Source: a virus
Virus record (IMG/VR): IMGVR_UViG_3300009079_000095
Span: 1-27,886 of that record
Reading direction: 5' to 3' (one strand)
Length of the DNA stretch: 27,886 nucleotides
Both the position numbers and the translations under genes were made by a program. Under the pieces are notes generated by a model. The model saw only the letters and a list, made by a program, of their open reading frames with translations. It was not told the DNA's origin and made no database searches. Below are positions 8,434 to 27,885 of the stretch, in pieces (position 1 is the stretch's first letter; every line of letters begins with the position of its first letter).

Positions 8434-8660
8434 AACATTGGGAACCGATAGAGTACCACTATATTGCTAACAATATGATTAAGTACGGTGGTGGTTTTTT
8501 CAGACAAATTGGATATGCTATTAAAAAAGCAGACCAAGTAAACAGGAACAAATTATCAAGAACTTTTGCTAAAGAATTTAGCAAGTACTATGAAATGACA
8601 GACATAGAAGATTATAATTCAATAGAAGATATAGAAGATGAAAACAACGAAAGCGTTTAA
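8430..8660 (+). CDS. Conserved small phage protein of unknown function (76 aa)
   Basis: A 76-residue protein: basic, Gly-rich N-terminal half (MIKYGGGFFRQIG, residues 16-28), a helical segment with a KADxxNxxKL pattern, and a very acidic C-terminal tail (residues 55-76). The GGGF...A...AD..N..KL...F pattern recurs in small uncharacterised proteins from many phages, but I know of no assigned function. It starts by ATGA overlap and overlaps the PcfK-like gene by 23 bases. Confidence 0.6.
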   Translation: MKHWEPIEYHYIANNMIKYGGGFFRQIGYAIKKADQVNRNKLSRTFAKEFSKYYEMTDIEDYNSIEDIEDENNESV

Positions 8661-9048
8661 GGAAGCAATTCTAAAAGACTTAAATGAAAGAGCATCCGAA
8701 GATCCTTTCTTTGAGGTTAGATTTCAAAATGAAGAAAAGAATATAGATGATTGTATTACCTATATTCTAAATCAAGTTCAGAAAAGTGGATGTAATGGAT
8801 TTGAAGATAGTGAGATATTCAATATGGCTTATCATTATTACGATGAAGATAATATTGAAATAGGTGGTGCATTTAATGGTAGTGTTGTTGTTAATCACGT
8901 AGTAGTTCTTACAGAAGAAGAAAAAGCTGAAGCTAAACAGAAAGCTATCGACAGTCTTATACAACAAGAACGAAATAAAATGTTAAAGAAACCAGAGGCA
9001 CCTAAAACCTCAACATTATCAAGTGATAACGAACCTACTTTATTCTAA
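8638..9048 (+). CDS. pcfK: PcfK-like protein
   Basis: A 136-residue protein matching the PcfK family pattern from Bacteroidota conjugative elements: an N-terminal MKxTxAFK start, KNIDDCITYIL (residues 34-44), SGCNGF (50-55), AYHYYDED (64-71) and VVNHVVVLTEEEK (84-96), then a charged coiled segment and a C-terminal PTLF end. The matching of the extreme N-terminus supports the start at 8638 despite the 23-base overlap with the previous gene. PcfK and PcfJ are commonly encoded side by side on plasmids and integrative elements; biochemical function is not established. Here PcfJ follows immediately through a TAATG overlap, so the pair is preserved. The terminal LF-type tail could be a clamp-binding peptide, as in other replication-linked proteins, but this is inference. 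Confidence 0.8.
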   Translation: MKTTKAFKEAILKDLNERASEDPFFEVRFQNEEKNIDDCITYILNQVQKSGCNGFEDSEIFNMAYHYYDEDNIEIGGAFNGSVVVNHVVVLTEEEKAEAKQKAIDSLIQQERNKMLKKPEAPKTSTLSSDNEPTLF

Positions 9049-10382
9049 TGCAAGCAAAGACTAAATTTCAGAGAGAGATAGTGGCTTTAGATAAAAAGCT
9101 ACCAAAGATAACTCAAACCCAAATGAAGTGGGCCAGAGAGAACGCACATAGCTTTGTTGCTTTCCGTAATAAGTCAGGAAATATCCATTGTCTACATTGT
9201 GGTCACGTATATAAAGTTCATACTACACAAGGTTGGCAAGATGAAGTAATGGGTGATAACTGTCCTAACTGTAAGCATAAACTAAAAATAGTTTCAACGC
9301 AACATAGAACATACGGAGAAACAAGAGAGTTCAGAATAATAACAACTTTCAAAGAGTATCAAGTTATCAGACTATTTGAAATACGATGTACCTACAAAAC
9401 GAAAGAGAAAGGTGTTTATTGGATTTTTGAAAATTCAAGAATATATCTTAACGAACAAGGTAAACACGCTATCATTGGTTATGGTAGAATGGCTGGTTGG
9501 TATGGTAGTAGATTTTTTGGAGAGTTCTCTCTAAAGAATAACAAGTCTATCAATGCACACGACCAACATGTAAACTATACTTATCCACGTATTAAATATC
9601 TACCTATCATTAAAAGAAATGGTCTTGAAAAATACGATGATAATATTACACCGTTTACTACGTTCTGGTTATTGCTTACTTTTCCAATAGCTGAAACATT
9701 GCTAAAACTTGGATATGTAGATGGCTTTCAAACTTGTTGTTATAGCTACAGAAGAGAGCAGATACAGAAATATTGGTCTTCATTTAAGATAGTATTTAGA
9801 AATAAATATAAGATAAAGAAAATGGAAAATTATTTAGATTACTTAAAGCTTTTAGAAGAATTTGGTAAAGATTTAAGAAGTCCTAAATATGTTTGTCCAG
9901 AGAACTTTAAAGAAGCTCATAATGTCTATGTCAAGAAAAAACAAAAGCAATATGAAGCTATAAGAAGAATGAAAGATGAAGAACGTAAACAAGCAGAGCT
10001 TGAAAAATTACGTAAAGATAAAGAGTGGTATAGTAAACGTATGGAACGATGGAAAGAACTTGAATTTAAAAATGGAGATGTAATGATCACAGTTATAAAA
10101 ACTGTAGATGAAGTAGAGAAATTAGGTAATCTTTTTAAGCATTGTATTCATACTAATGGATATCATAGAGAAGAAGATGCACTATTACTTTGTGGTTACT
10201 ATAAAGGAAAACCTAAAGAAACTATAGAAGTTTCATTAGAGAATTTTACCATAGTTCAATCCAGAGGTTTAGGCAATAAAGCATCAAGGTATAATAAACC
10301 TATTATAGCTACTCTTACAAAGAACCTTAGAACTATCAAGAAGATAGCAAAGCAAAAAGAAGTCAAATTAAAATCAGCATAG
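9048..10382 (+). CDS. pcfJ: PcfJ-like protein with N-terminal zinc ribbon
   Basis: A 444-residue protein with two visible modules. Residues 48-75 form a zinc ribbon (C48-x2-C51 and C72-x2-C75). The C-terminal part (about 340-435) carries the PcfJ-type signature: a leucine-rich lead, LFKHCIHTN with its HC pair, a KPKETIEVSLENFTIVQSRG strand pair, then GNK. Between them lies a charged helical stretch (about 290-340, rich in Lys, Glu and Arg). PcfJ proteins are known from conjugative plasmids (named in pCF10) and are widespread in Bacteroidota mobile elements; a nucleic-acid-linked role is likely but unproven. It is coupled to PcfK upstream and followed, in the same frame after a TAG and one codon, by the DnaB-type helicase. 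Confidence 0.75.
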   Translation: MQAKTKFQREIVALDKKLPKITQTQMKWARENAHSFVAFRNKSGNIHCLHCGHVYKVHTTQGWQDEVMGDNCPNCKHKLKIVSTQHRTYGETREFRIITTFKEYQVIRLFEIRCTYKTKEKGVYWIFENSRIYLNEQGKHAIIGYGRMAGWYGSRFFGEFSLKNNKSINAHDQHVNYTYPRIKYLPIIKRNGLEKYDDNITPFTTFWLLLTFPIAETLLKLGYVDGFQTCCYSYRREQIQKYWSSFKIVFRNKYKIKKMENYLDYLKLLEEFGKDLRSPKYVCPENFKEAHNVYVKKKQKQYEAIRRMKDEERKQAELEKLRKDKEWYSKRMERWKELEFKNGDVMITVIKTVDEVEKLGNLFKHCIHTNGYHREEDALLLCGYYKGKPKETIEVSLENFTIVQSRGLGNKASRYNKPIIATLTKNLRTIKKIAKQKEVKLKSA

Positions 10383-10385
10383 ATT

Positions 10386-11750
10386 ATGGAAAAAACAGAG
10401 AAAAATTATGATGTCTATCATAGGATAAATATTGAGATACAAGTATTGGCAAGTATTATAGGAGCCGATAATAAGAGTGGTGTTAAAGAACTTGTTCTAA
10501 AACACAACCTTACTATATTAGACTTTCATTCTTTTACTCACCAATTTATTTTTAAAGCAGTATTAGAATGTTATGAGAATGGCATTATACCAACAGTAGT
10601 TACTATTTGTCAATTTAGACCTGATAAGTTTAGATTTAATAATGCAAAGACTTTTGAGTATGAAGTTATTGATATTCTACAAAAAGGAATTAACTCTCAC
10701 GTACTATTAGAGCATCACATAATGATGCTTAAACAATATGTGTTATTTGATTTCTGGAACCATAAAGCCTACGATGTGCTTTATGGGAATTGGAACAATC
10801 GAGATGTACTTCAAGTTGGAGATAATATTATTAGTGCCTATAATAAACTTTATAATAGGTTAACTGTTAATATTACTACGCAACAAGAAAATGATTACGA
10901 AACTGAAATACGTAATAAGGTTAAAAATAAATCAGAAGGTAAGTCTACAGGTATTACTACCTCTGTAGATGCTATTGATTCATTTACAGGCGGTTATTCT
11001 TTAGGCGAATTAGTTATCATAGCAGCAAGACCAGGTATGGGTAAAACTACCTATGCTTTAATATCAGCTTGGAACTCTGCAATGGAAGGTAATCACGTAG
11101 TATTCTTTTCATTAGAAATGGCACGTAATCAGTTGAAATCTAAATTGATTGGACTGATCACTGGTATTGAATACAAAAGAATAAAAAAAGGGGAACTGTC
11201 TAATGATGAATTGATGAAAGTAATACAAGCTGATAGGTATATAGAGCAATCAAATCTTGTTATTGATGATAAAATCAGAACTATTGAGGACATAGTACGA
11301 AAGTCTAAAGAATATGTAGCTAAGTTTAATACTAAGCTATTCTTTTTAGATTACATACAAAGAACTGGTAGTGTTGATAAGATGGAACTAAGAGTATTAG
11401 TGACTATTATTACAAGAGAGTTGAAATCTATAGCTAAAGAGCTTTATGTTGCTTTTGTTGCTTTATCTCAATTAAGTAGAGCAGTAGAGAACAGAGAGAA
11501 TAAAAGACCTAAACTATCAGATTTAAAAGAGTCAAGTAGTATAGAAGAAGATGCTGATATTGTAGCATTCTTATATAGAGAAGCTTATTATGATGAACAG
11601 AAAGGACAAACACCTGGTTTCTCTGAACTGTTCCATACGGAGTTTATTATAGGTAAGGGGAGAGATATTGGAACTACTACTATTCACTTGTTTATTAATC
11701 CTATTAATATGACTATTAATAGTTATAATTTTAGTGGTAAGTATGAATAA
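10386..11750 (+). CDS. dnaB: Replicative DNA helicase, DnaB-like
   Basis: A 454-residue protein of the length usual for DnaB. Residues about 8-150 correspond to the N-terminal helical domain, and residues 185-450 to the RecA-like motor. The Walker A loop reads ARPGMGKTT with K220-T221, followed by the FFSLEMA element (H1a-type) and a Walker B strand LFFLDYIQ with D322. Downstream, ALSQLSRAVE, a KESSSIEEDAD motif and a C-terminal GKGRDIGTT segment match the DnaB hallmarks. It unwinds the replication fork 5'-3' as a hexamer. No primase domain is fused, so primase must be elsewhere in the genome or host-supplied. It is the last gene before a hairpin and noncoding region. Confidence 0.93.
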   Translation: MEKTEKNYDVYHRINIEIQVLASIIGADNKSGVKELVLKHNLTILDFHSFTHQFIFKAVLECYENGIIPTVVTICQFRPDKFRFNNAKTFEYEVIDILQKGINSHVLLEHHIMMLKQYVLFDFWNHKAYDVLYGNWNNRDVLQVGDNIISAYNKLYNRLTVNITTQQENDYETEIRNKVKNKSEGKSTGITTSVDAIDSFTGGYSLGELVIIAARPGMGKTTYALISAWNSAMEGNHVVFFSLEMARNQLKSKLIGLITGIEYKRIKKGELSNDELMKVIQADRYIEQSNLVIDDKIRTIEDIVRKSKEYVAKFNTKLFFLDYIQRTGSVDKMELRVLVTIITRELKSIAKELYVAFVALSQLSRAVENRENKRPKLSDLKESSSIEEDADIVAFLYREAYYDEQKGQTPGFSELFHTEFIIGKGRDIGTTTIHLFINPINMTINSYNFSGKYE

Positions 11751-12206: not shown

Positions 12207-12544
12207 TGTACATTAAAGACTTATCACAAGACAAAAGTAAAAATGTCAGAAAATTTACTTCACAATCCGATTGTTACAGTTACTTAACTAATGAGGTCTT
12301 TTTAAAAGAGGACTTCATTAGGCACGTAACTGATACGGCTAAGGCTAACAATGTTAGCTATATAGTAGCATACACAGTAATAACTAATTATTTAAACAAT
12401 ATCTTATATGAAGTAGACACACAAATAATATCCAAAAGAAAAAAGAGCAAAATTCGCATTCATAGTTATTTCTCCATATTGATTGGTTTTAGACTCAATG
12501 CAAGTAAACGATTATATTCATATTTAAAAACAGTACAGAAATGA
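12206..12544 (+). CDS. Hypothetical 112-aa protein between HU/IHF-like and SSB
   Basis: A basic, helical-looking protein with no recognised motif. The C-terminal 40 residues are strongly basic (a SKRKKSKIRIHS stretch at 74-85), fitting DNA binding by composition only. It is locked between two replication-linked genes by a TAATG start and an ATGA end. Its coding sequence contains an unusually long imperfect inverted repeat at 12277-12332 (reported separately). Confidence 0.6.
   Translation: MYIKDLSQDKSKNVRKFTSQSDCYSYLTNEVFLKEDFIRHVTDTAKANNVSYIVAYTVITNYLNNILYEVDTQIISKRKKSKIRIHSYFSILIGFRLNASKRLYSYLKTVQK
12277..12332. repeat. Long imperfect inverted repeat inside a coding region
   Basis: Outer arms CAGTTAC (12277-12283) and GTAACTG (12326-12332) pair perfectly. 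After a 4x4 internal mismatch, the inner arms 12288-12298 and 12311-12321 pair over 11 positions (seven Watson-Crick pairs, one G-T, three more pairs) around a 12-base loop. In total this is about 18 base pairs of dyad symmetry. It could form an mRNA hairpin or a DNA cruciform, or serve as a protein-binding site. Confidence 0.6.
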
Positions 12545-13485
12545 ACGCAAATGATTTTATAGTACCTAATTCTTCAAAGAAGAGATTAGACAAACAAGTT
12601 TTAGAAGCAGGACCAAATCCTGGTATTTTATATTCCATAGTTGATTGTGGAACACAGTACAATAAGTACTTTGACAAAAGCTCACGTATAGTGAGATTGA
12701 TATTTGAATTTCCTTTATTAAAGCAATTATTTAATGAGGGAGATACAGAAGCACGCTCAACAGTAGTGAGCCAAGAGTACACTTTTATGTTAGGGGAAAC
12801 CTCAAACTTAAAGACCAAGATTATTGATGGAGCAGAAGGTAGAATTGTACCTAAAAGCGAATACAAAAATGGTTGGAGTATAGGTCAATATTTAGGTAGA
12901 ACATTTATTGTTGATATCATAAATAGACCAAAGAAAGACGACCCAACTATTATTTATAATAACATTGGAAGTATTAAAGGTCTTACTGATAAGTTGAGAA
13001 CAACTTATAATTTTGATTGGGAATCAGTAGTGAGAACTAATGATTTATTATCTTTTATGATTGATGAAAAAGGAGAATGTTTTAGAACTGAAGAGTTTAC
13101 TAAACTACCTGATTATCTTCAAAAAATGATAAAAGAAAGTGAGGAAGCAGTACGTTACGCAAATAATGGTGGTGCTTTTGCTACAAGAGAACAATTTACT
13201 AATAATGGTACAGGACAAGCACCTAAAGCAGCTCCACCTATTCAGAGAGCACCTGTATCTTCAACAGAACCTATCAAGCAAATGCTTGTAACTGATTTCA
13301 CATATGAAGAATATATAGCTTCAAATTGGACAGATGATTTATTAGTAGCACATGGTAAGATGGAAATAATTCAGCCACCTAAAGTTGCTACACCACCAGC
13401 ACCAGCAGCAGCACCAACAGCTCCTGTTTCTTCAGCACCTACATTAGATATGGTAGATGAAAATGAAGATGATGTACCATTTTAA
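12541..13485 (+). CDS. ssb: Single-stranded DNA-binding protein
   Basis: A 314-residue protein with an N-terminal OB-type region (about residues 20-140), a linker, and a Pro/Ala-rich flexible segment near residues 279-302. It ends in the acidic tail DENEDDVPF, the classic SSB C-terminal tip that recruits partner proteins. The body pattern (GPNPGILYSIVDCGTQ near 24-39, VVSQEYTFML, and WSIGQYLGRTFIVDI) matches the phage SSB-like proteins of this size in crAss-like and other tailed phages. It coats single-stranded DNA at the fork and interacts with the helicase and nucleases encoded nearby. It starts by ATGA overlap and is the last gene before a large stem-loop. Confidence 0.8.
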   Translation: MNANDFIVPNSSKKRLDKQVLEAGPNPGILYSIVDCGTQYNKYFDKSSRIVRLIFEFPLLKQLFNEGDTEARSTVVSQEYTFMLGETSNLKTKIIDGAEGRIVPKSEYKNGWSIGQYLGRTFIVDIINRPKKDDPTIIYNNIGSIKGLTDKLRTTYNFDWESVVRTNDLLSFMIDEKGECFRTEEFTKLPDYLQKMIKESEEAVRYANNGGAFATREQFTNNGTGQAPKAAPPIQRAPVSSTEPIKQMLVTDFTYEEYIASNWTDDLLVAHGKMEIIQPPKVATPPAPAAAPTAPVSSAPTLDMVDENEDDVPF

Positions 13486-18822: not shown

Positions 18823-19008
18823 ATGACTAAAAAGAAAAAATATATAACGACAATAAAAGATTTAGAAGAACTTATGAATGAACTTTCTAAAAATCGTCCT
18901 AAAAATTATTGGAAAGAATTAGATGAAAATTTAACGCCCCAACAAAGAAAAGCTTTTGATGAGGCGCTTAAAAGGGAAGCTAAAAATATTAAATGGAAGA
19001 AATTATAA
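18823..19008 (+). CDS. Hypothetical 61-aa basic protein, last gene of the plus-strand block
   Basis: A small basic, helical protein with a Lys-rich N-terminus and KWKKL C-terminus. It starts three bases after the previous stop, again in the AATTATG context. Its TAA stop lies inside the end of the giant minus-strand gene: the two 3' ends overlap by six bases with no intergenic space for a terminator. Function unknown. Confidence 0.6.
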   Translation: MTKKKKYITTIKDLEELMNELSKNRPKNYWKELDENLTPQQRKAFDEALKREAKNIKWKKL

Positions 19009-22000
19009 TCCTTTCCCTTCCATAGCTACTGCATCAGATGTTGGTGCAAGACCACTTAGCATATTTAAAATTGTTCTTACTGAAGATGGCATAGCTTTAA
19101 ATTCAAGCTTGCTGGTATTTACTAAATAATTAGCATCACCAGTAAGCTCTCTTGCTACACCTAAATTCATAGTTTCTCCTGCTATAATAGCTACAGAAAT
19201 CATTGCCAATCCTTTTAGTCCTGCATCAAAACGAGCTCTTATTTGAGGTTCTAATCCTGCCCGGTAAGCACCAAGTTGACCGATAGGTATTTCACCACCT
19301 GTAAACTTAGCTATCATTTCCCATACAGCTGTTAAGCTACCAATATGTTTTTCTCCGTAGATATTTACATCTTCTTTAGCAAACTTGTCATATACCATTG
19401 TAGGTATAAAACGACTGAACTGCATAATAGCTCTACCCCAAGAGTAACGTTGTATCAATCTCTGGTCTGTAGGTGTGTAACCTTTACCATGTGAGTTCTT
19501 AACTTCATTCTCCATTTTAGTAAGCTCTTGTGCTGTTATTTCAGTCTCTCCTACTTTGTAGTTACCATTTTCATCAAATTTATCATATTGCTCTTTTGAT
19601 AACATTCCTAAAAAGTGTACACCTTGAATCCATTTCTCTGAAGCCATCATAGGCCAAAGAGCAATATCAGTAAATATAGAATCTAATCCTGATGAGGATT
19701 GTAAGTTCACATCGTCATAGAAATTAGCATCTGTAAAGTTTATAGTTTTTAAGATACCCATAGCTTTTTTATGTTTACCCCAAAATCTACTCTCTCCCAT
19801 TAACCAGGCTTTACCACCTTGATTTTTAATGTTGTTATACTTTCCTACTACAACATTTCCAATAGTGTACATTCCTTTACCTACTGCTAATAGTTTCCAA
19901 CCCATTATGTATAATAGGTTTCCTCTAACAATAGCATCTATCACTCTATCTCCAGAACTGTCTTTTTGTAATTTCTTAGCTTTTAAGAAATACTCCTTAT
20001 AAACCTTTCTAACGAACTTGTTTTGGTTTACAAAGCCTTTCATCTTGTTATGTAATAAAAGTCCATCTACAGTAGCTTGTAGTGCTTTAAAACCTTTAAA
20101 GTTCTTATTACCTGTAATGAATAGTTGAGTATGTGTAAAATCAGAGAGTGCTTTGTTTAAATCTAATGAAGCCATATGGTCTGCATTTATCCAACCACCA
20201 TTCGCAAAGTTGTTTACCATTCCATCACCTAAGATAGTATGGTTGAACACATCTTCATGCTTAAACATAGAGCCATCTTCATTCTTTTTAACTTTAAAGA
20301 GTTTCTTTGCTTTATTGCGAAGTTGTATATACTCTTTATTAGTTTTCCAACTGCTCTTTTTATCTTGTCTAAAGATATCTTCTATATGTTTAAATCTCAT
20401 TAATTGACCTTCAAACTCTAACTCTACATCACCTATAGCCTCATCTATTGGTCGAGAGTTAATTAAGACACCTAATAGTCCTTTCCTACCAAAAGACTCT
20501 AATCTTCCCATACCAATCGCTGGTATTCCTCCACCAATATATTTATCGTCATTTATCTTTGGGTCTAACTCATTAGTGATCTCACGAAATGTTTTAGCAA
20601 AGTTGTATTCAACTTGTGTGATTTCATTATTAGCTAATTTTTGTCGTAAGATATTATCAGATAATAATGCATATCGTTTTTGGTCTTTACCACGTTCTGT
20701 ACGATATTCTGTAGTAATAATATTGCCATAAAGAATACGGTAAATATCATCACGATTTTTAAATAGTAATACTGCAGCTCTCTGTATTTTCTTTATGAAA
20801 CTATTTTTAGCTGGATTGTAATTGAATTTTTCAGCATATAAGTTTTCTGTAGCATCATTGATACGCGTAAGATATTTCTTACGTTCATTCATAAAGCCTT
20901 TAAACTCTGTCTCTAATTCACGTTGTACAGCTTGTGTTGCTGGATGTGTAGAGTCTATGTTATTAGTTTGAAACCAAGCTTTGATTACACCAATATCATT
21001 TTGACCTTCTTGTACTTTAGTAAGTGCTGATTGTTCATTGGAAGCACGTTGGGTAAGTTCAAGCATAACAGGAACCATAATGTTAGCCGCTGCATAAGCA
21101 TCATATCTACCCCAAGTGTTATAAAGTTTTAAAACTTCTTCAGTATCTATATCTTGTAGATGCTTTTTAAATTCTCCTTCTTTATACTTTTCCAGGAAGC
21201 TGTTTGTCTTTTTCTTATCTCTTAGATAATTAAGCCAAATACGAGCCTCCTGAATGTATGTTAAAGATTGCTTATATTCATAAGCGTTCATTAGTTCTGA
21301 TTGGTCTAGTGAGTCCTCTCTTGTATAATTATAGTAATCATCTTTAAAAAATCTACCTACGACACTACTTTTTTTTTTAGAGTTCTTTTCTTCTTGCAAA
21401 ATAGCATCTTCATCAATAGCCTCTTTACTCAATATGTTAGGAACTACACCATCATCTTTTATAAAACCACCATTATCATCAGTTGAATTATCATTAATCA
21501 ATATCATATGAGCTCTCTTAGGCACATTATTACTTGTTTCTAATAATTCTAATTTAGGTTCTCCAACAAGTTTAAAACCTCTACTTGTTTTACTTGTTAT
21601 TAAATCTCTTGCTATAGCTGACCATTCGTCATTATCTTTAGCTTTAGACTCACTATACTCGGTTATACCATCATCTTTAGTAACATAAGGGCCAATAGCA
21701 TTAATTTCGATAACCTTATTTATTCTCTTACCACCACTGATATAAGATACATTTACTCTAAAGTTTTCTCTACCATTTATCCTATTGGTAACAGCTTTAT
21801 TGTGCCCTAATTTTTTATACAACTCTTCAAAAGATTTAGAGCTTGGATCGTCTGTTAAATTTGGAAGCTCTTTATTTAAAAAGACACTTGGCAAATAGTT
21901 CATATCATTTTCTTCTGCCGCTAATGATTCTAAATCACGTATTCTTTTGTACGCTTTTTTAATGATATTATCAGCAAATTCTTCTTCATTTTCTTTAAAC

Positions 22001-25000
22001 ATTTTAGCTCTTGAAGTTATATAAGATGTAATATCATAAGGGAAAATAGGATATAAAGACTCTTCTCCATTCCAACCATTTTTCACTAAATCATACAATA
22101 CTAATTTACGTTGTAAGGCTAATGGCAATTCAGAAAATTCATTCTGTAGCATTATTCTATCAGGGTGCGTATAATGTTGTTGTAATACTTGTGGATTTAG
22201 TTTTATTTTTCCAGCTTCTATAATGATACCTTGCTTGAATAAACGAGAACGTGTATAATCAGTATCTTTATTTCCAACATTGTTTGGGTCTTCCCAATAA
22301 GTATGTAGCTCATCATCTAACATTTCTGCATAATTCTTCAACTCTGTAGCTAATGGCAATAGCGCATCTTCTCCAACTGCAATTTCATCTTCATATTGGA
22401 AAATATCATTTATCTCTGATACGTCAATATTATTAACACCTAACAATCTACCATAGATAAAAGGAACAAGATATTCAGAAAAATGCTTTAACTCTCTACC
22501 ACTTAAAGCAGAAGCTGTCACTTTATCTTTTACAAGTGTAATAATATCTCTAATAGAAGGGTTTTCAATAATACTCAAACGTCTTTGATGCTTGATAAAT
22601 TCTAAAGCCATTCTCTTATAATGCTTTAATTCAGGACTATCTATAATTAATGGTTCTATTGAATTTTCAGCTAAATCAGATTTCTCTCTAAAATAAAGAG
22701 TAGAATTTTTCTTTCCTTCTTTTTTACCAACCATTTCAGCTTCACGCTTCTTGTTAGTTATTAAAGCATTTAGATCCGTTACTTGCTTCTCTAAAGCAAA
22801 TACATTTAATTCCATCTTGTTATGACCTGAAGTAATATCAGTTATGATTGAAATATCATCACTTATTTTGGATAAATAATGCATCAGTCTTAGAATAGCA
22901 AATCCATTTTCATCACTATTATAACGATTTGACTTTGGGTCTACAGTAACACTAAATTCACTTGGATTGCTATAGATCTCTAAAGAGGTATTTTCATACT
23001 TCTCTTTATATTTATAAATTATAGACTTATAACTACCAGTTTCCAAATAGTCATTCCCCATTTCATTACGTTTCTCTATGTATTCTTTTGCCATAGGGTG
23101 ATTAAATAGTAACCCTATTTTCTGAATATCAAACCCTAAGTTCACTAATATCATTGCTGAAGAAATACTATTAATGTTTAAGTTTAAAGCATCAGCGTGT
23201 CCATTCTTAGTACTATCCAATACGATATTGGCAAGAATAGTAGATAAGTGAATACGTGAATTAATACCTTTATTCTTATTTATTGGTTTGTCTGCATTCC
23301 TATCTGTAAAACCTCTCTCTACTTGTCCATCTATATTGATGTTTACTAATTTTGGTTTTTCAGTTATTTCACCTTTTGAATTTTTACCTTTAACAGTACC
23401 ATTAGATAACATTGTTTCATAGGTAGCTAATAAGTTCAAGGCTCTATGCGTATTAAAAGCGATACCAATAGTCTGTTGAGCAACTACAGAGTTGTTATAT
23501 TGCTTTGTGTAATGTTCAGTACCAAAAGGAATAACAAAGTCTGCCTCCGCTTTTATAACAGCTAACTTTTTTTCAAAAGCTTTTTGGTCTATAAGACCTC
23601 TATTTAGTTTTTCTTCTAATGCTCTTTGTTGTTTATATTGCTCTGGATTTAAAGCTTCATTATTTTCTTCTATGATAGCATCCATATTACTCTCAAAACG
23701 CAATGGTGTTTCTAAAGTTATACGCATATCTTCAGCTGTCCATTGTTCTATTAACATATCAAATGCTTTATTCCAATTTCCATATCCAGCTTCTCTAATA
23801 GTACCTTTATCCTTAGCAGCCGAAGAGTCTCCCATTCTCTCATCTATAGAACCATCTTTTCTTTTAGAGGCTTGATAAATAAATAAAGCATCTCCATCGT
23901 GGTCAGCTCCGACTAACCAACTATATTCAGCAGGAACAATAATATTTGAAGCTCCGGTATCGTGAAAACCTACCACTTCTGCAACACCTACGAAAGCTGG
24001 TCCGTTATGTGGTATTCTTGTAAGCATTACTGTTTCTCCAGGTATATAAGTACCAATACGATTTCTTTCGTTTTTTACAGGAGATGAGTAGATACCATTT
24101 TCTTCAAGCATTAAATCCATAGCTTCTGTATTTACAGTACCATTAGGATGTAATAACTTTAATCTTTTTAAGGTATTGAAATTCGTTAAAAAACCTTTTT
24201 TATTTCTATGTAATAACTTTCCTCTTGCATTATCAACACCGCCAAACTCATCATATATAGACTCTCTTGCTACAGTCTGATCTCCAGGTAATGGTTCAGG
24301 AAGTACAATTTCAAATGGAACAGTAACTTGTTTCCCATCGACAATTTTCCAACCATAAGAGTTTAGCTTTGAAGTACCATTTATATATTCTTTAGATACT
24401 TTAGGATTGTTTTTTCTTCTTACATTCCCTTGCTCATCTATAAACTGTTCTACAGCTGGATAAGTTTTATCTCTATTCGGTCTATTTATAAAACCTTCTA
24501 CATTTTTATCAGTTACAAATTTATATCCCATATCTGAAATGGTCTGTCCATAAGTACCTGTTACTTTTAGATTGTTACCATGTCTGATAATTTGAGCTCT
24601 AAATTGGTTTCCTGCGAAATCAGCAACGTGAGGTGAATAAGGTAACTCTCCATAAGTTAAAGCCGCAATAGTATAAGGGTCTGAATTTAATTTATTAGCA
24701 GCTTCTCTTATAAATCTACTGTATTTAAAATCATCATCAATTTCATAACTCGCCATTTCATCAAGAACAGCCTTTTTAAAGTTTACCCATTTCTGTTGAT
24801 TGATAAGCTCTTGTATACGCAATGCATTATTCAGTGGCGCTCCTTTCTTAGCGTGTGGTATAGACGTTAATACTTGCGTTCCGAATGTCGCTTGTGTATA
24901 ACGCTTATCCATTATCTGTTGAGGTCCAAAATTAGAACCATCTAATCCTACAAAACCACTTTCAGTATAGTATAGTTTATCTAATAAAGCTTCATATTCT

Positions 25001-27885
25001 TTTTGTACTTCAGGGTTTTTAAGTTGCTCTAAACTGAATTTAGTCTTTAAACCTAATAGTTCTTTTGTATGAAATAACCCAGCTTTTTCAGCACTTACAG
25101 GTGTTACTATTGGAATGTATTTAGGTCTATCACTATCAACACTTGTTTGAGTTCTGAAATTAGGATCATATTCTTCTCCATATTTCTTTAGATAGTCGGC
25201 TTTAAACTTCTCATTTCTATTGGTAAGAATTTTCCATATAGGGTACAGATGCTGTTGATTACCATTAGTCACAGCTTCTTCTGTAAGTACAGTGGTATAA
25301 CCTTTCATTTGAGAAGTCTGATTTGCAAACCAAGCATTCTCTTTCTCTATAGTATGTGAGTATAGCTTATAACCTTTATTGAAATCTTTATTTAAAGCTT
25401 GTATAGCATCAGCGTGTTCTGGTAAGATATATTGAATACCATCATTACTAACGATAACATTTTTCTCCCATTGCTTAAAACGCTTTCTAAAAGCAGCTTC
25501 TGTTTCCTTACCATTTTCATCTTTTAATGGTCTGGTTAATTTAAACTCATCATCCATAGGTAGCATTTCAACTCTTAATCGAGGGTCTAATGCTATTACA
25601 GGCGCTACATGTCCTTTGTTATTTTTGGTAAGTCCATCTAAAAATAAACCTGGACTCATCATTTCGTGAACATAGAATGTATTGGCTACTCTATTAAAGA
25701 TAAAGTTCTTTATTAAAGTTTCTCCTTCTTTAGTTAGTTTATTAAGGACTGTTCCATCTTTAGTTTGATAGAATGGCTGTAAACTTTTTACTTTAGATAA
25801 GCTTTCAGAATGTTCAGCAAGATATTTTATCCATTTGTCAGCATCCTTTTTAATGGCTTTTTCAAATTGAGGAAAGTTAGCACCTATTTTATTAGGTATG
25901 CCTTCCATTGCTTTTTTCTTATCCTTGTTTAAAGACTCATAAATACTAAAAATCTTATTAAGATGGGAGGCTCCTTTAGCATTGAAATTGCCATCAGCAG
26001 TAAGTATATTTTCAATACGTGGCAATCCTACTAATAAACGTCTTGATGAGTTCCCTAAAATATCCATAGAGCCTAAATAATTAGAATCTTCATTCTTGAT
26101 ACTCTCTGTAAATTGTAACAACTCATTGATAAGTTGCTGTTCAGCAGACATATCTTTATAATTTTTAGCTTTATTGAACATTTCATTCTTACTACCAAAG
26201 TCAAGAACCATTAAAGGCAACTCTCCTTTCAAATGGAAGTTGTCATAAAACGACTCTAAAAGAGGGTTAAAAGAAGATACTGTTACAGATTTATCACTAT
26301 TAGAATATTTCGTGATAAATTCTTTCTTAGCTTTACCAGTATATTCAGAGTTTTTTAAATCAACAACAATCTTATTGAATAATTTAATAGCGTGATTGCT
26401 AAACATTCTTGTGGTAACATTGTTCCCAGTAGGCCCCTTAACAACACTTGTAGAACCAAAACGTTTTCCTGTTAATAGAATAGATGATATAATTCTCTCA
26501 TTTCTATCTTTTATAGGCTTTAACTTAGTTCTCACAGTACCAGCCATCATAAATTCATCATTAGACTTGTTTCCAGTAAAAGGAATAATCTCCTGTTCAG
26601 TAGCATTTAATAATTGCTTTAAAGCTGATACAATAGGAACGTTTTTCTTATTTATAATAAGATATCCATTTCCAATTATCTTTTTAGCAATGTTTAAATC
26701 ATGACCATAGAACTTGATTATTTCAGCAGCAGCTTCTTGAACTTCTCTAGTTTCAATATCACCTCTCTCTAAAATATCAATAGCATCTTCTAATAGATTT
26801 TTCTGTTCTATAGTTTTACGAGATAATTGTTTTAATGTTCTTTTAATGATAATAGGGTCATTAGCTGATTGAGCTGTTACAGAAGTGTATTCTCCATTCT
26901 TATCAACAGTATGAATGATACCAGGTATTATTGCTGTATTTCCATATAGCAAATGCATAGTTACTAACCTCTGTAATGCATCTTGTTTAAATTCAGCATT
27001 AAGATGTTTCATAAATTCTTTTTGATGAATATCATTTGTTTGTTCTAAAACTCTGATAAAATCAATAGGTGAATCATACATATAAGCTAAATCCATTAAT
27101 CCCTCTGTAAACTTATTAAGGTTAATACCTTCAGTGTACATAGCATCAACTTTCTTAGCATTAGGATCATTTTTAACAGCTTCTATTTCAGCTGATTTTC
27201 TTTCGTTAGATACTTTATTAAATTGCTCTACAAAGTGTTTTATAACTTCTGTAGTTTTCATCATTGTGGCATTGTAATTATCATCCCACATTGTTCCTAT
27301 GTTAGTTTCTATGTCTTGATTTAATTTCTCTAACGCATCAACTTGTGAAAATTCTTCATTCGCTTCTGGTAAAGGTCTATCCCATAAATCCCAATCATCT
27401 ACAAGAGTACCCTTTTTATCCTCATCTATTTTGATAGGAGCATAAAAAGCCTCTACCATTTTTATATCTGCTTTGTTTTGCTTATTTCTTGATTTAGCTT
27501 GCTCTTCACGTAGCCTTTTCATAATATCTAAATTATCCTCTTTGGTAATTGTACTCTTTTCATTGTCAAGAGCAAATCTACCACCTACAGTAACAGGCTT
27601 TCCTTGTATCATAGATACAAAGTTATTCATGATATGGTCGTTGATATTAGTACCATCTAATTTTTCTTCAGATAATTTTTGAGCTAAATTGAAGTTGTTA
27701 TCTTCTTGCTTTTTAGCTTTATCTTTAATACGTCTCCACCAATTTTTAACTTGTGCTTGTCTTGGTAAATCTGTTCTTGGATTGAAATATTTAGAGAACT
27801 TTTTAGACATAGGTCCTTGTAAGTAATTAGCAAACAATTCATCCATAATAACAGGTTGTTCGTGCATAGGAGCTTTACGAGCCAT
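19003..27885 (-). CDS. Giant crAss-like phage virion RNA polymerase polyprotein (5' end at window edge)
   Basis: A 2960-residue frame read right to left, with an ATG at the window's edge, so the protein may extend further. At about residues 1275-1340 is a double-psi beta-barrel segment of multisubunit-type RNA polymerases: a YIPGETVMLTRIPHNGP lead (the counterpart of the beta' LHRLG region) and the metal-binding motif D1328-H-D1330-G-D1332 (ADHDGDALF). This matches the D-x-D-G-D triad of the YonO/QDE-1-like enzymes known as gp66 in phage phi14:2 and relatives, which are packaged in the virion and injected to transcribe early genes. The first ~1000 residues and the region ~1400-2300 are long and mostly helical or mixed; I cannot assign the second barrel. 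The last ~300 residues contain two hydrophobic stretches (about 2655-2680 and 2888-2907), suggesting a membrane-active ejection or portal-tunnel part. No in-frame stop interrupts the whole length. Confidence 0.8.
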   Translation of the reverse strand: MARKAPMHEQPVIMDELFANYLQGPMSKKFSKYFNPRTDLPRQAQVKNWWRRIKDKAKKQEDNNFNLAQKLSEEKLDGTNINDHIMNNFVSMIQGKPVTVGGRFALDNEKSTITKEDNLDIMKRLREEQAKSRNKQNKADIKMVEAFYAPIKIDEDKKGTLVDDWDLWDRPLPEANEEFSQVDALEKLNQDIETNIGTMWDDNYNATMMKTTEVIKHFVEQFNKVSNERKSAEIEAVKNDPNAKKVDAMYTEGINLNKFTEGLMDLAYMYDSPIDFIRVLEQTNDIHQKEFMKHLNAEFKQDALQRLVTMHLLYGNTAIIPGIIHTVDKNGEYTSVTAQSANDPIIIKRTLKQLSRKTIEQKNLLEDAIDILERGDIETREVQEAAAEIIKFYGHDLNIAKKIIGNGYLIINKKNVPIVSALKQLLNATEQEIIPFTGNKSNDEFMMAGTVRTKLKPIKDRNERIISSILLTGKRFGSTSVVKGPTGNNVTTRMFSNHAIKLFNKIVVDLKNSEYTGKAKKEFITKYSNSDKSVTVSSFNPLLESFYDNFHLKGELPLMVLDFGSKNEMFNKAKNYKDMSAEQQLINELLQFTESIKNEDSNYLGSMDILGNSSRRLLVGLPRIENILTADGNFNAKGASHLNKIFSIYESLNKDKKKAMEGIPNKIGANFPQFEKAIKKDADKWIKYLAEHSESLSKVKSLQPFYQTKDGTVLNKLTKEGETLIKNFIFNRVANTFYVHEMMSPGLFLDGLTKNNKGHVAPVIALDPRLRVEMLPMDDEFKLTRPLKDENGKETEAAFRKRFKQWEKNVIVSNDGIQYILPEHADAIQALNKDFNKGYKLYSHTIEKENAWFANQTSQMKGYTTVLTEEAVTNGNQQHLYPIWKILTNRNEKFKADYLKKYGEEYDPNFRTQTSVDSDRPKYIPIVTPVSAEKAGLFHTKELLGLKTKFSLEQLKNPEVQKEYEALLDKLYYTESGFVGLDGSNFGPQQIMDKRYTQATFGTQVLTSIPHAKKGAPLNNALRIQELINQQKWVNFKKAVLDEMASYEIDDDFKYSRFIREAANKLNSDPYTIAALTYGELPYSPHVADFAGNQFRAQIIRHGNNLKVTGTYGQTISDMGYKFVTDKNVEGFINRPNRDKTYPAVEQFIDEQGNVRRKNNPKVSKEYINGTSKLNSYGWKIVDGKQVTVPFEIVLPEPLPGDQTVARESIYDEFGGVDNARGKLLHRNKKGFLTNFNTLKRLKLLHPNGTVNTEAMDLMLEENGIYSSPVKNERNRIGTYIPGETVMLTRIPHNGPAFVGVAEVVGFHDTGASNIIVPAEYSWLVGADHDGDALFIYQASKRKDGSIDERMGDSSAAKDKGTIREAGYGNWNKAFDMLIEQWTAEDMRITLETPLRFESNMDAIIEENNEALNPEQYKQQRALEEKLNRGLIDQKAFEKKLAVIKAEADFVIPFGTEHYTKQYNNSVVAQQTIGIAFNTHRALNLLATYETMLSNGTVKGKNSKGEITEKPKLVNINIDGQVERGFTDRNADKPINKNKGINSRIHLSTILANIVLDSTKNGHADALNLNINSISSAMILVNLGFDIQKIGLLFNHPMAKEYIEKRNEMGNDYLETGSYKSIIYKYKEKYENTSLEIYSNPSEFSVTVDPKSNRYNSDENGFAILRLMHYLSKISDDISIITDITSGHNKMELNVFALEKQVTDLNALITNKKREAEMVGKKEGKKNSTLYFREKSDLAENSIEPLIIDSPELKHYKRMALEFIKHQRRLSIIENPSIRDIITLVKDKVTASALSGRELKHFSEYLVPFIYGRLLGVNNIDVSEINDIFQYEDEIAVGEDALLPLATELKNYAEMLDDELHTYWEDPNNVGNKDTDYTRSRLFKQGIIIEAGKIKLNPQVLQQHYTHPDRIMLQNEFSELPLALQRKLVLYDLVKNGWNGEESLYPIFPYDITSYITSRAKMFKENEEEFADNIIKKAYKRIRDLESLAAEENDMNYLPSVFLNKELPNLTDDPSSKSFEELYKKLGHNKAVTNRINGRENFRVNVSYISGGKRINKVIEINAIGPYVTKDDGITEYSESKAKDNDEWSAIARDLITSKTSRGFKLVGEPKLELLETSNNVPKRAHMILINDNSTDDNGGFIKDDGVVPNILSKEAIDEDAILQEEKNSKKKSSVVGRFFKDDYYNYTREDSLDQSELMNAYEYKQSLTYIQEARIWLNYLRDKKKTNSFLEKYKEGEFKKHLQDIDTEEVLKLYNTWGRYDAYAAANIMVPVMLELTQRASNEQSALTKVQEGQNDIGVIKAWFQTNNIDSTHPATQAVQRELETEFKGFMNERKKYLTRINDATENLYAEKFNYNPAKNSFIKKIQRAAVLLFKNRDDIYRILYGNIITTEYRTERGKDQKRYALLSDNILRQKLANNEITQVEYNFAKTFREITNELDPKINDDKYIGGGIPAIGMGRLESFGRKGLLGVLINSRPIDEAIGDVELEFEGQLMRFKHIEDIFRQDKKSSWKTNKEYIQLRNKAKKLFKVKKNEDGSMFKHEDVFNHTILGDGMVNNFANGGWINADHMASLDLNKALSDFTHTQLFITGNKNFKGFKALQATVDGLLLHNKMKGFVNQNKFVRKVYKEYFLKAKKLQKDSSGDRVIDAIVRGNLLYIMGWKLLAVGKGMYTIGNVVVGKYNNIKNQGGKAWLMGESRFWGKHKKAMGILKTINFTDANFYDDVNLQSSSGLDSIFTDIALWPMMASEKWIQGVHFLGMLSKEQYDKFDENGNYKVGETEITAQELTKMENEVKNSHGKGYTPTDQRLIQRYSWGRAIMQFSRFIPTMVYDKFAKEDVNIYGEKHIGSLTAVWEMIAKFTGGEIPIGQLGAYRAGLEPQIRARFDAGLKGLAMISVAIIAGETMNLGVARELTGDANYLVNTSKLEFKAMPSSVRTILNMLSGLAPTSDAVAMEGKGL

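Follow-up and report, generated by a model that had tools for sequence, protein, structure and literature searches.

The PcfK-PcfJ pair carried by the virus studied here is probably a two-protein, sliding-clamp-associated module for the replication or processing of the DNA of mobile elements. Attachment to the clamp is suggested by two features, described here for the first time: the PcfK family ends in a putative clamp-docking peptide, Q-x-[S/T/D]-L-F, and a gene for a DnaN-type sliding clamp is the commonest neighbour of viral pcfK-pcfJ, lying next door in many related phages. This reading is moderately secure for the family and less so for the copy in the window, i.e. the whole stretch of 27,886 nucleotides that was analysed, a virus record of 27.9 kb. 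The features of the window that are needed below are the following.

8638-9048, plus strand: pcfK, 136 aa, PF14058 (Pfam E 3.8e-45)
9031-9045, plus strand: EPTLF, residues 132-136 of PcfK, a degenerate copy of the putative clamp-docking peptide of the family
9048-10382, plus strand: pcfJ, 444 aa, PF14284 over residues 262-413 (Pfam E 3.4e-26)
9189-9272, plus strand: zinc ribbon of PcfJ, C48-x2-C51 / C72-x2-C75, the four cysteines being invariant in 121 PcfJ
10047-10352, plus strand: C-terminal domain of PcfJ, residues 334-435, weakly GNAT-like, with conserved H365, C366, Y372, E391, E394, Q404, R406 and N410
10386-11750, plus strand: dnaB, replicative helicase, PF03796 (E 9.3e-67)
12541-13485, plus strand: SSB-like protein ending in EDDVPF, NCBIfam NF046043 (75 bits), part of a conserved replication block

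Both proteins belong to the families to which the initial annotation had assigned them, with scores far above the Pfam gathering scores that serve as membership cut-offs. Indeed, PcfK obtains 153.8 bits against PF14058 (cut-off 27 bits; residues 2-136 on positions 1-137 of a model of 139) and PcfJ obtains 92.3 bits against PF14284 (cut-off 25 bits; residues 262-413 on positions 2-138 of a model of 147). The coordinates, the PcfK peptides (KNIDDCITYIL, SGCNGF, AYHYYDED and VVNHVVVLTEEEK, all within 8638-9048), the TAATG overlap between the pcfK stop and the pcfJ start and the zinc ribbon of PcfJ had all been read correctly, as had the DnaB-type helicase directly downstream, whose start (10386) lies 3 nt after pcfJ.

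The two genes are tightly linked well beyond this virus. Among 262 PcfK ORFs from viral contigs, Bacteroidota genomes, phages and one plasmid, 257 have PcfJ downstream, mostly at a spacing of -28 to +13 nt, and those without it are mostly found at contig ends or are broken or duplicate ORFs. At several Bacteroidota genome loci (L160, L162-L167, L169, L172, L177 and L180), pcfK and pcfJ are separated by about 570 nt. The pair is also common on Bacteroidota plasmids; on the two plasmids inspected, it lies near SSB, toprim, TraM-recognition and ArdC genes. A fusion of PcfK and PcfJ on plasmid CP126057.1 was considered as Rosetta-stone evidence for a complex and was rejected, as it is due to the deletion of a single T in a T6 run in comparison with a sister plasmid. 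This one-base deletion (L021:9990-10000, compared with L325) falls at the LF-stop end of pcfK and reflects either an assembly error or a slippery site; the fusion is annotated as a "Cas9 inhibitor AcrIIA9 family protein". In another contig, binned as Oscillospiraceae and probably derived from a stop-recoded phage, a PcfK with the tail QPTLFD (L171:4935-5342) can be read through only if its two in-frame TAG codons are translated as glutamine.

Phage-borne PcfK-PcfJ has already been annotated in the Polaribacter phages Danklef and Freya and in the Bacteroides phage BS-TP3. These are likewise phages of Bacteroidota and carry the pair in the same order and with the same spacing as the window, but they have no dnaB directly downstream, and their pair follows replication-initiation/recombination genes. 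Their PcfK tails are canonical (NQISMF, QQMSLF), whereas that of the window is degenerate. The open-access full-text literature, to which the search was confined, gives almost no function for PcfK or PcfJ and no link to the clamp.

Members of the PcfK family consist of a conserved helical domain, a charged and poorly conserved linker and the peptide Q-x-[S/T/D]-L-F, with a few more residues after it in some members. The AlphaFold2 model of the window PcfK comprises a helical N-terminal domain, a long helix and a low-confidence C-terminal tail (mean pLDDT 77, tail 53-61). Within the tail, the columns are conserved at 80% (Q), 65% (S), 96% (L) and 99% (F), and the linker before it mostly at less than 50%. 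A strict motif, Q-x-x-[LM]-F within the last 15 residues, is present in 33 of 52 non-redundant PcfK against 24 of 3078 control ORFs, i.e. the remaining ORFs from these loci (Fisher P ~2e-49, a value that counts related genomes as independent and serves as a guide only), and a looser [x]LF motif in 47 of 52 against 142 of 3078; shuffled PcfK tails give the strict motif at a rate of 0.3%. The tail is kept in divergent Bacteroidota PcfK (LTLFDL), and a PcfK from a Firmicutes genome (PF14058 E 2.3e-8) ends in IQLSLF.

The consensus of the PcfK tail corresponds to the clamp-binding motif described for bacteria, QL[S/D]LF (PMC3919608, PMC4549789); positions 1, 4 and 5 of it weigh most, and some polymerase groups keep positions 4-5 alone (PMC3919608). 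Transposases of several IS families bind the clamp through a C-terminal QLxLF (PMC4549789) and resemble PcfK in being mobile-element proteins with a C-terminal peptide of the clamp-docking type on a variable tail. PcfK differs from them in being no transposase, in relying on another protein, PcfJ, as its presumed effector and in often having the clamp encoded alongside. In the window, EPTLF keeps L4 and F5 and has E instead of Q at position 1. Q is also missing from this position in two more distant relatives of the window (ESTTLF in L016 and DELKLF in L267, compared with NEPTLF in the window), so that the lineage has E or S/T there, and the clamp-docking reading is weaker for the window copy.

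Furthermore, the neighbourhood of the pair points to the clamp. Many phages carry the pair, often beside a gene for a sliding clamp, an SNF2 helicase or DnaB, and when 150 direct neighbours were scanned against Pfam, DNA polymerase III beta came first, with 16 members. A clamp gene is encoded in 26 of 97 virus records with pcfK-pcfJ, on the same strand as the pair in all 26 cases and within about 600 nt of it, on either side, in 24 of them, including two loci (L032 and L054) where it directly abuts the pair downstream; random placement would bring about 4.4 clamps within 1.5 kb of the pair. When loci were collected from the clamp gene instead, pcfK-pcfJ was found just upstream in 22 of 30, in a set that overlaps the pair-seeded one. 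Related genomes are not independent in these counts either, but adjacency on both sides of the pair argues for a repeated association. Two phage loci (L092 and L237) show the order clamp-pcfK-pcfJ-Lin1244/DUF7833 protein-dnaB. About three quarters of the virus records with pcfK-pcfJ, which may be fragments, show no clamp of their own, and a search for a clamp gene gave no match in the 78.9-kb sister contig of the window, a record that may likewise be a fragment.

The confident AlphaFold2 model of PcfJ (mean pLDDT 95.9) combines the zinc ribbon with a beta domain, helices and a further long helix, and has an alpha/beta domain at its C-terminus. In this last domain, H365, C366, Y372 and N410 are invariant across 121 PcfJ and E391, E394, Q404 and R406 nearly so, and these residues suggest an active or ligand site. 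The structural matches of the domain listed by VIA-align are GNAT acyltransferases only, with a best Z of 7.3, short of the 8 at which such a match becomes trustworthy, and the consensus of the PcfJ family does not retain the R/QxxGxG/A loop of GNAT enzymes as such. Foldseek searches of the PDB with the PcfK and PcfJ models gave no match at E<=0.001, searches of PDB sequences with single proteins and profiles found no match for PcfK and, for PcfJ, only zinc fingers of a generic kind, and PADLOC gave no meaningful match. PcfJ-like proteins of Listeria LP-064, Enterococcus EFDG1 and Bacillus Shbh1 are distant structural matches of the PcfJ model (BFVD).

In the mechanism proposed here, PcfK would be the tether and PcfJ the effector. 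The helical domain of PcfK would hold PcfJ, and its flexible linker would allow the C-terminal peptide to dock into the DnaN pocket, be it that of the phage's own clamp, where one is encoded, or otherwise that of the host clamp. In PcfJ, the zinc ribbon would probably contact DNA, and the C-terminal domain would bring the conserved H/C/E/Q/R/N site; the complex may act on phage DNA that has just been replicated or carries a loaded clamp. For the window copy, this scheme is less secure because EPTLF is degenerate and searching the lineage for a clamp gene gave none; its PcfK may therefore target the host clamp, or its link to the clamp may be weakened.

Three near-identical contigs are present in IMG/VR, the longest measuring 78.9 kb. 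This contig has two opposed gene blocks; its TerL and portal protein match PHROG profiles, there is a weak match for the major head protein as well, and two of its ORFs are as long as 3268 and 4163 aa. Its TerL shares 22-26% identity with Crassvirales TerLs, and the virus may be a relative of crAss-like phages, a placement by distant similarity alone. A giant ORF of the window (19003-27885, minus strand) codes for a protein of 2960 aa with an ADHDGD motif at residue 1327; it has no PHROG match, and tblastn against phages gave no match either. We take its DHDGD motif to recall the RNA polymerases of crAss-like phages, and the protein is possibly a virion RNA polymerase of the crAss type. Both this motif and the gene layout fit a crAss-like virus.

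The window shares the gene order pcfK-pcfJ-dnaB-HU-x-SSB-like-exonuclease with its relatives L016 and L267. The two syntenic sister contigs L269 and L270 (44.5 and 35.7 kb) keep the order from dnaB to the exonuclease and lack both PcfK and PcfJ. Upstream of dnaB, they carry ArdC-like, Prok-E2_D and ThiF genes (L270:577-3915, and likewise in L269), a region that resembles the PRTRC cassette of plasmids, here in a crAss-like phage. The SSB-like gene matches a profile named after an NGO0469-type replication initiator, yet its product has an acidic tail (EDDVPF in the window, EDDLPF in L267, DDDMPF in L270). Acidic tails of this kind are a signature of single-stranded DNA-binding proteins. Neither PcfK nor PcfJ occurs in eight crAss-like genomes (seven classified Crassvirales and one unclassified record), so that the suggested survey of such genomes for the pair next to dnaB yielded none (0/8). 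With L016 and L267 keeping the pair and L269, L270 and the eight genomes lacking it, the pair is accessory in the window lineage.

The main rival to the clamp role, or a function complementary to it, is anti-CRISPR activity, which is newly drawn in here by way of AcrIIA9, a reported anti-Cas9 protein with a PcfK domain (domain assignment from PMC6739104). AcrIIA9 is a protein of 141 aa obtained by functional selection against SpyCas9 in E. coli (PMC6739104, PMC6538845); it shares its Pfam domain and approximate size with the window PcfK (136 aa) and has 351 RefSeq homologues (PMC6739104). PcfK could accordingly be primarily a Cas9 inhibitor of the AcrIIA9 type with PcfJ as its partner, serving counter-defence, its position among early genes securing early expression only. 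In keeping with this, a plasmid PcfK that is 48% identical is annotated as a "Cas9 inhibitor AcrIIA9 family protein", the name being carried over by annotation pipelines, and the matching slot of L269 and L270 holds, among others, the ArdC-like antirestriction gene. We nevertheless regard it as unlikely: an Aca neighbour accompanies only one of the 351 AcrIIA9 homologues (PMC6739104), and the near-obligate tie to a zinc-ribbon protein of 440 aa and the frequent adjacency to a clamp gene are unlike a stand-alone inhibitor. Moreover, Cas9 inhibition was tested for AcrIIA9 alone, to which the window copy is linked by its domain, whereas PcfK proteins are nearly always paired with PcfJ. Inhibition of the AcrIIA9 type and clamp binding can also coexist. 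Speculatively, a clamp-binding protein could act indirectly in an anti-Cas9 selection in E. coli. A bolder version of this idea is less probable still. In it, PcfK-PcfJ would be an enzyme complex tethered to the clamp, often one supplied together with the pair, and would modify proteins or DNA at the replication forks of both phages and conjugative elements; AcrIIA9 would then counteract Cas9 as a side effect of docking to the clamp and would not inhibit it directly.

A specific accessory role for DnaB, as loader or helicase modulator, would explain the position of the pair directly upstream of dnaB, with a gap of 3 nt in the window and the same order in L016 and L267; in phage Freya, the pair is also directly preceded by a gene for a DnaC-like loader. 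This role is quite improbable, since L269 and L270 keep the dnaB-HU-SSB-exonuclease block without pcfK-pcfJ, the pair being thus optional for the helicase module. A general link to DnaB was rejected on the same ground and on counts: DnaB lies within three genes of the pair at six loci among about 131 non-redundant pairs, and a DnaB_C match is present in just 4 of the 11 first-hit viral records (which may be fragments), three of them from the window lineage. The initial idea of a replication or processing function independent of conjugation, which had been drawn from the position next to dnaB, is therefore right in direction, given the many phages with the pair, the clamp, SNF2 and DnaB neighbours and the putative clamp-docking tail, and the evidence suggests the sliding clamp rather than DnaB as the partner. 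It is hardly credible that the pair plays no role in the phage and is only a passenger that came from conjugative elements: it is common on Bacteroidota plasmids and missing from the eight crAss-like genomes, but its overlapping start and stop codons, its presence in many unrelated phages and its long retention and divergence within phages (38% identity for PcfJ and 51% for PcfK between the window and L016, with the invariant residues retained) all speak against this.

PcfK and PcfJ are widespread in mobile elements of Bacteroidota, and the conserved tail together with the adjacency to clamp genes provides a testable idea for the whole family. If it acts at the clamp, the pair would belong to replication or repair rather than to conjugation, and the putative clamp-docking tail matters for understanding the action of AcrIIA9, which is listed as a Cas9 inhibitor and comes from the PcfK family.
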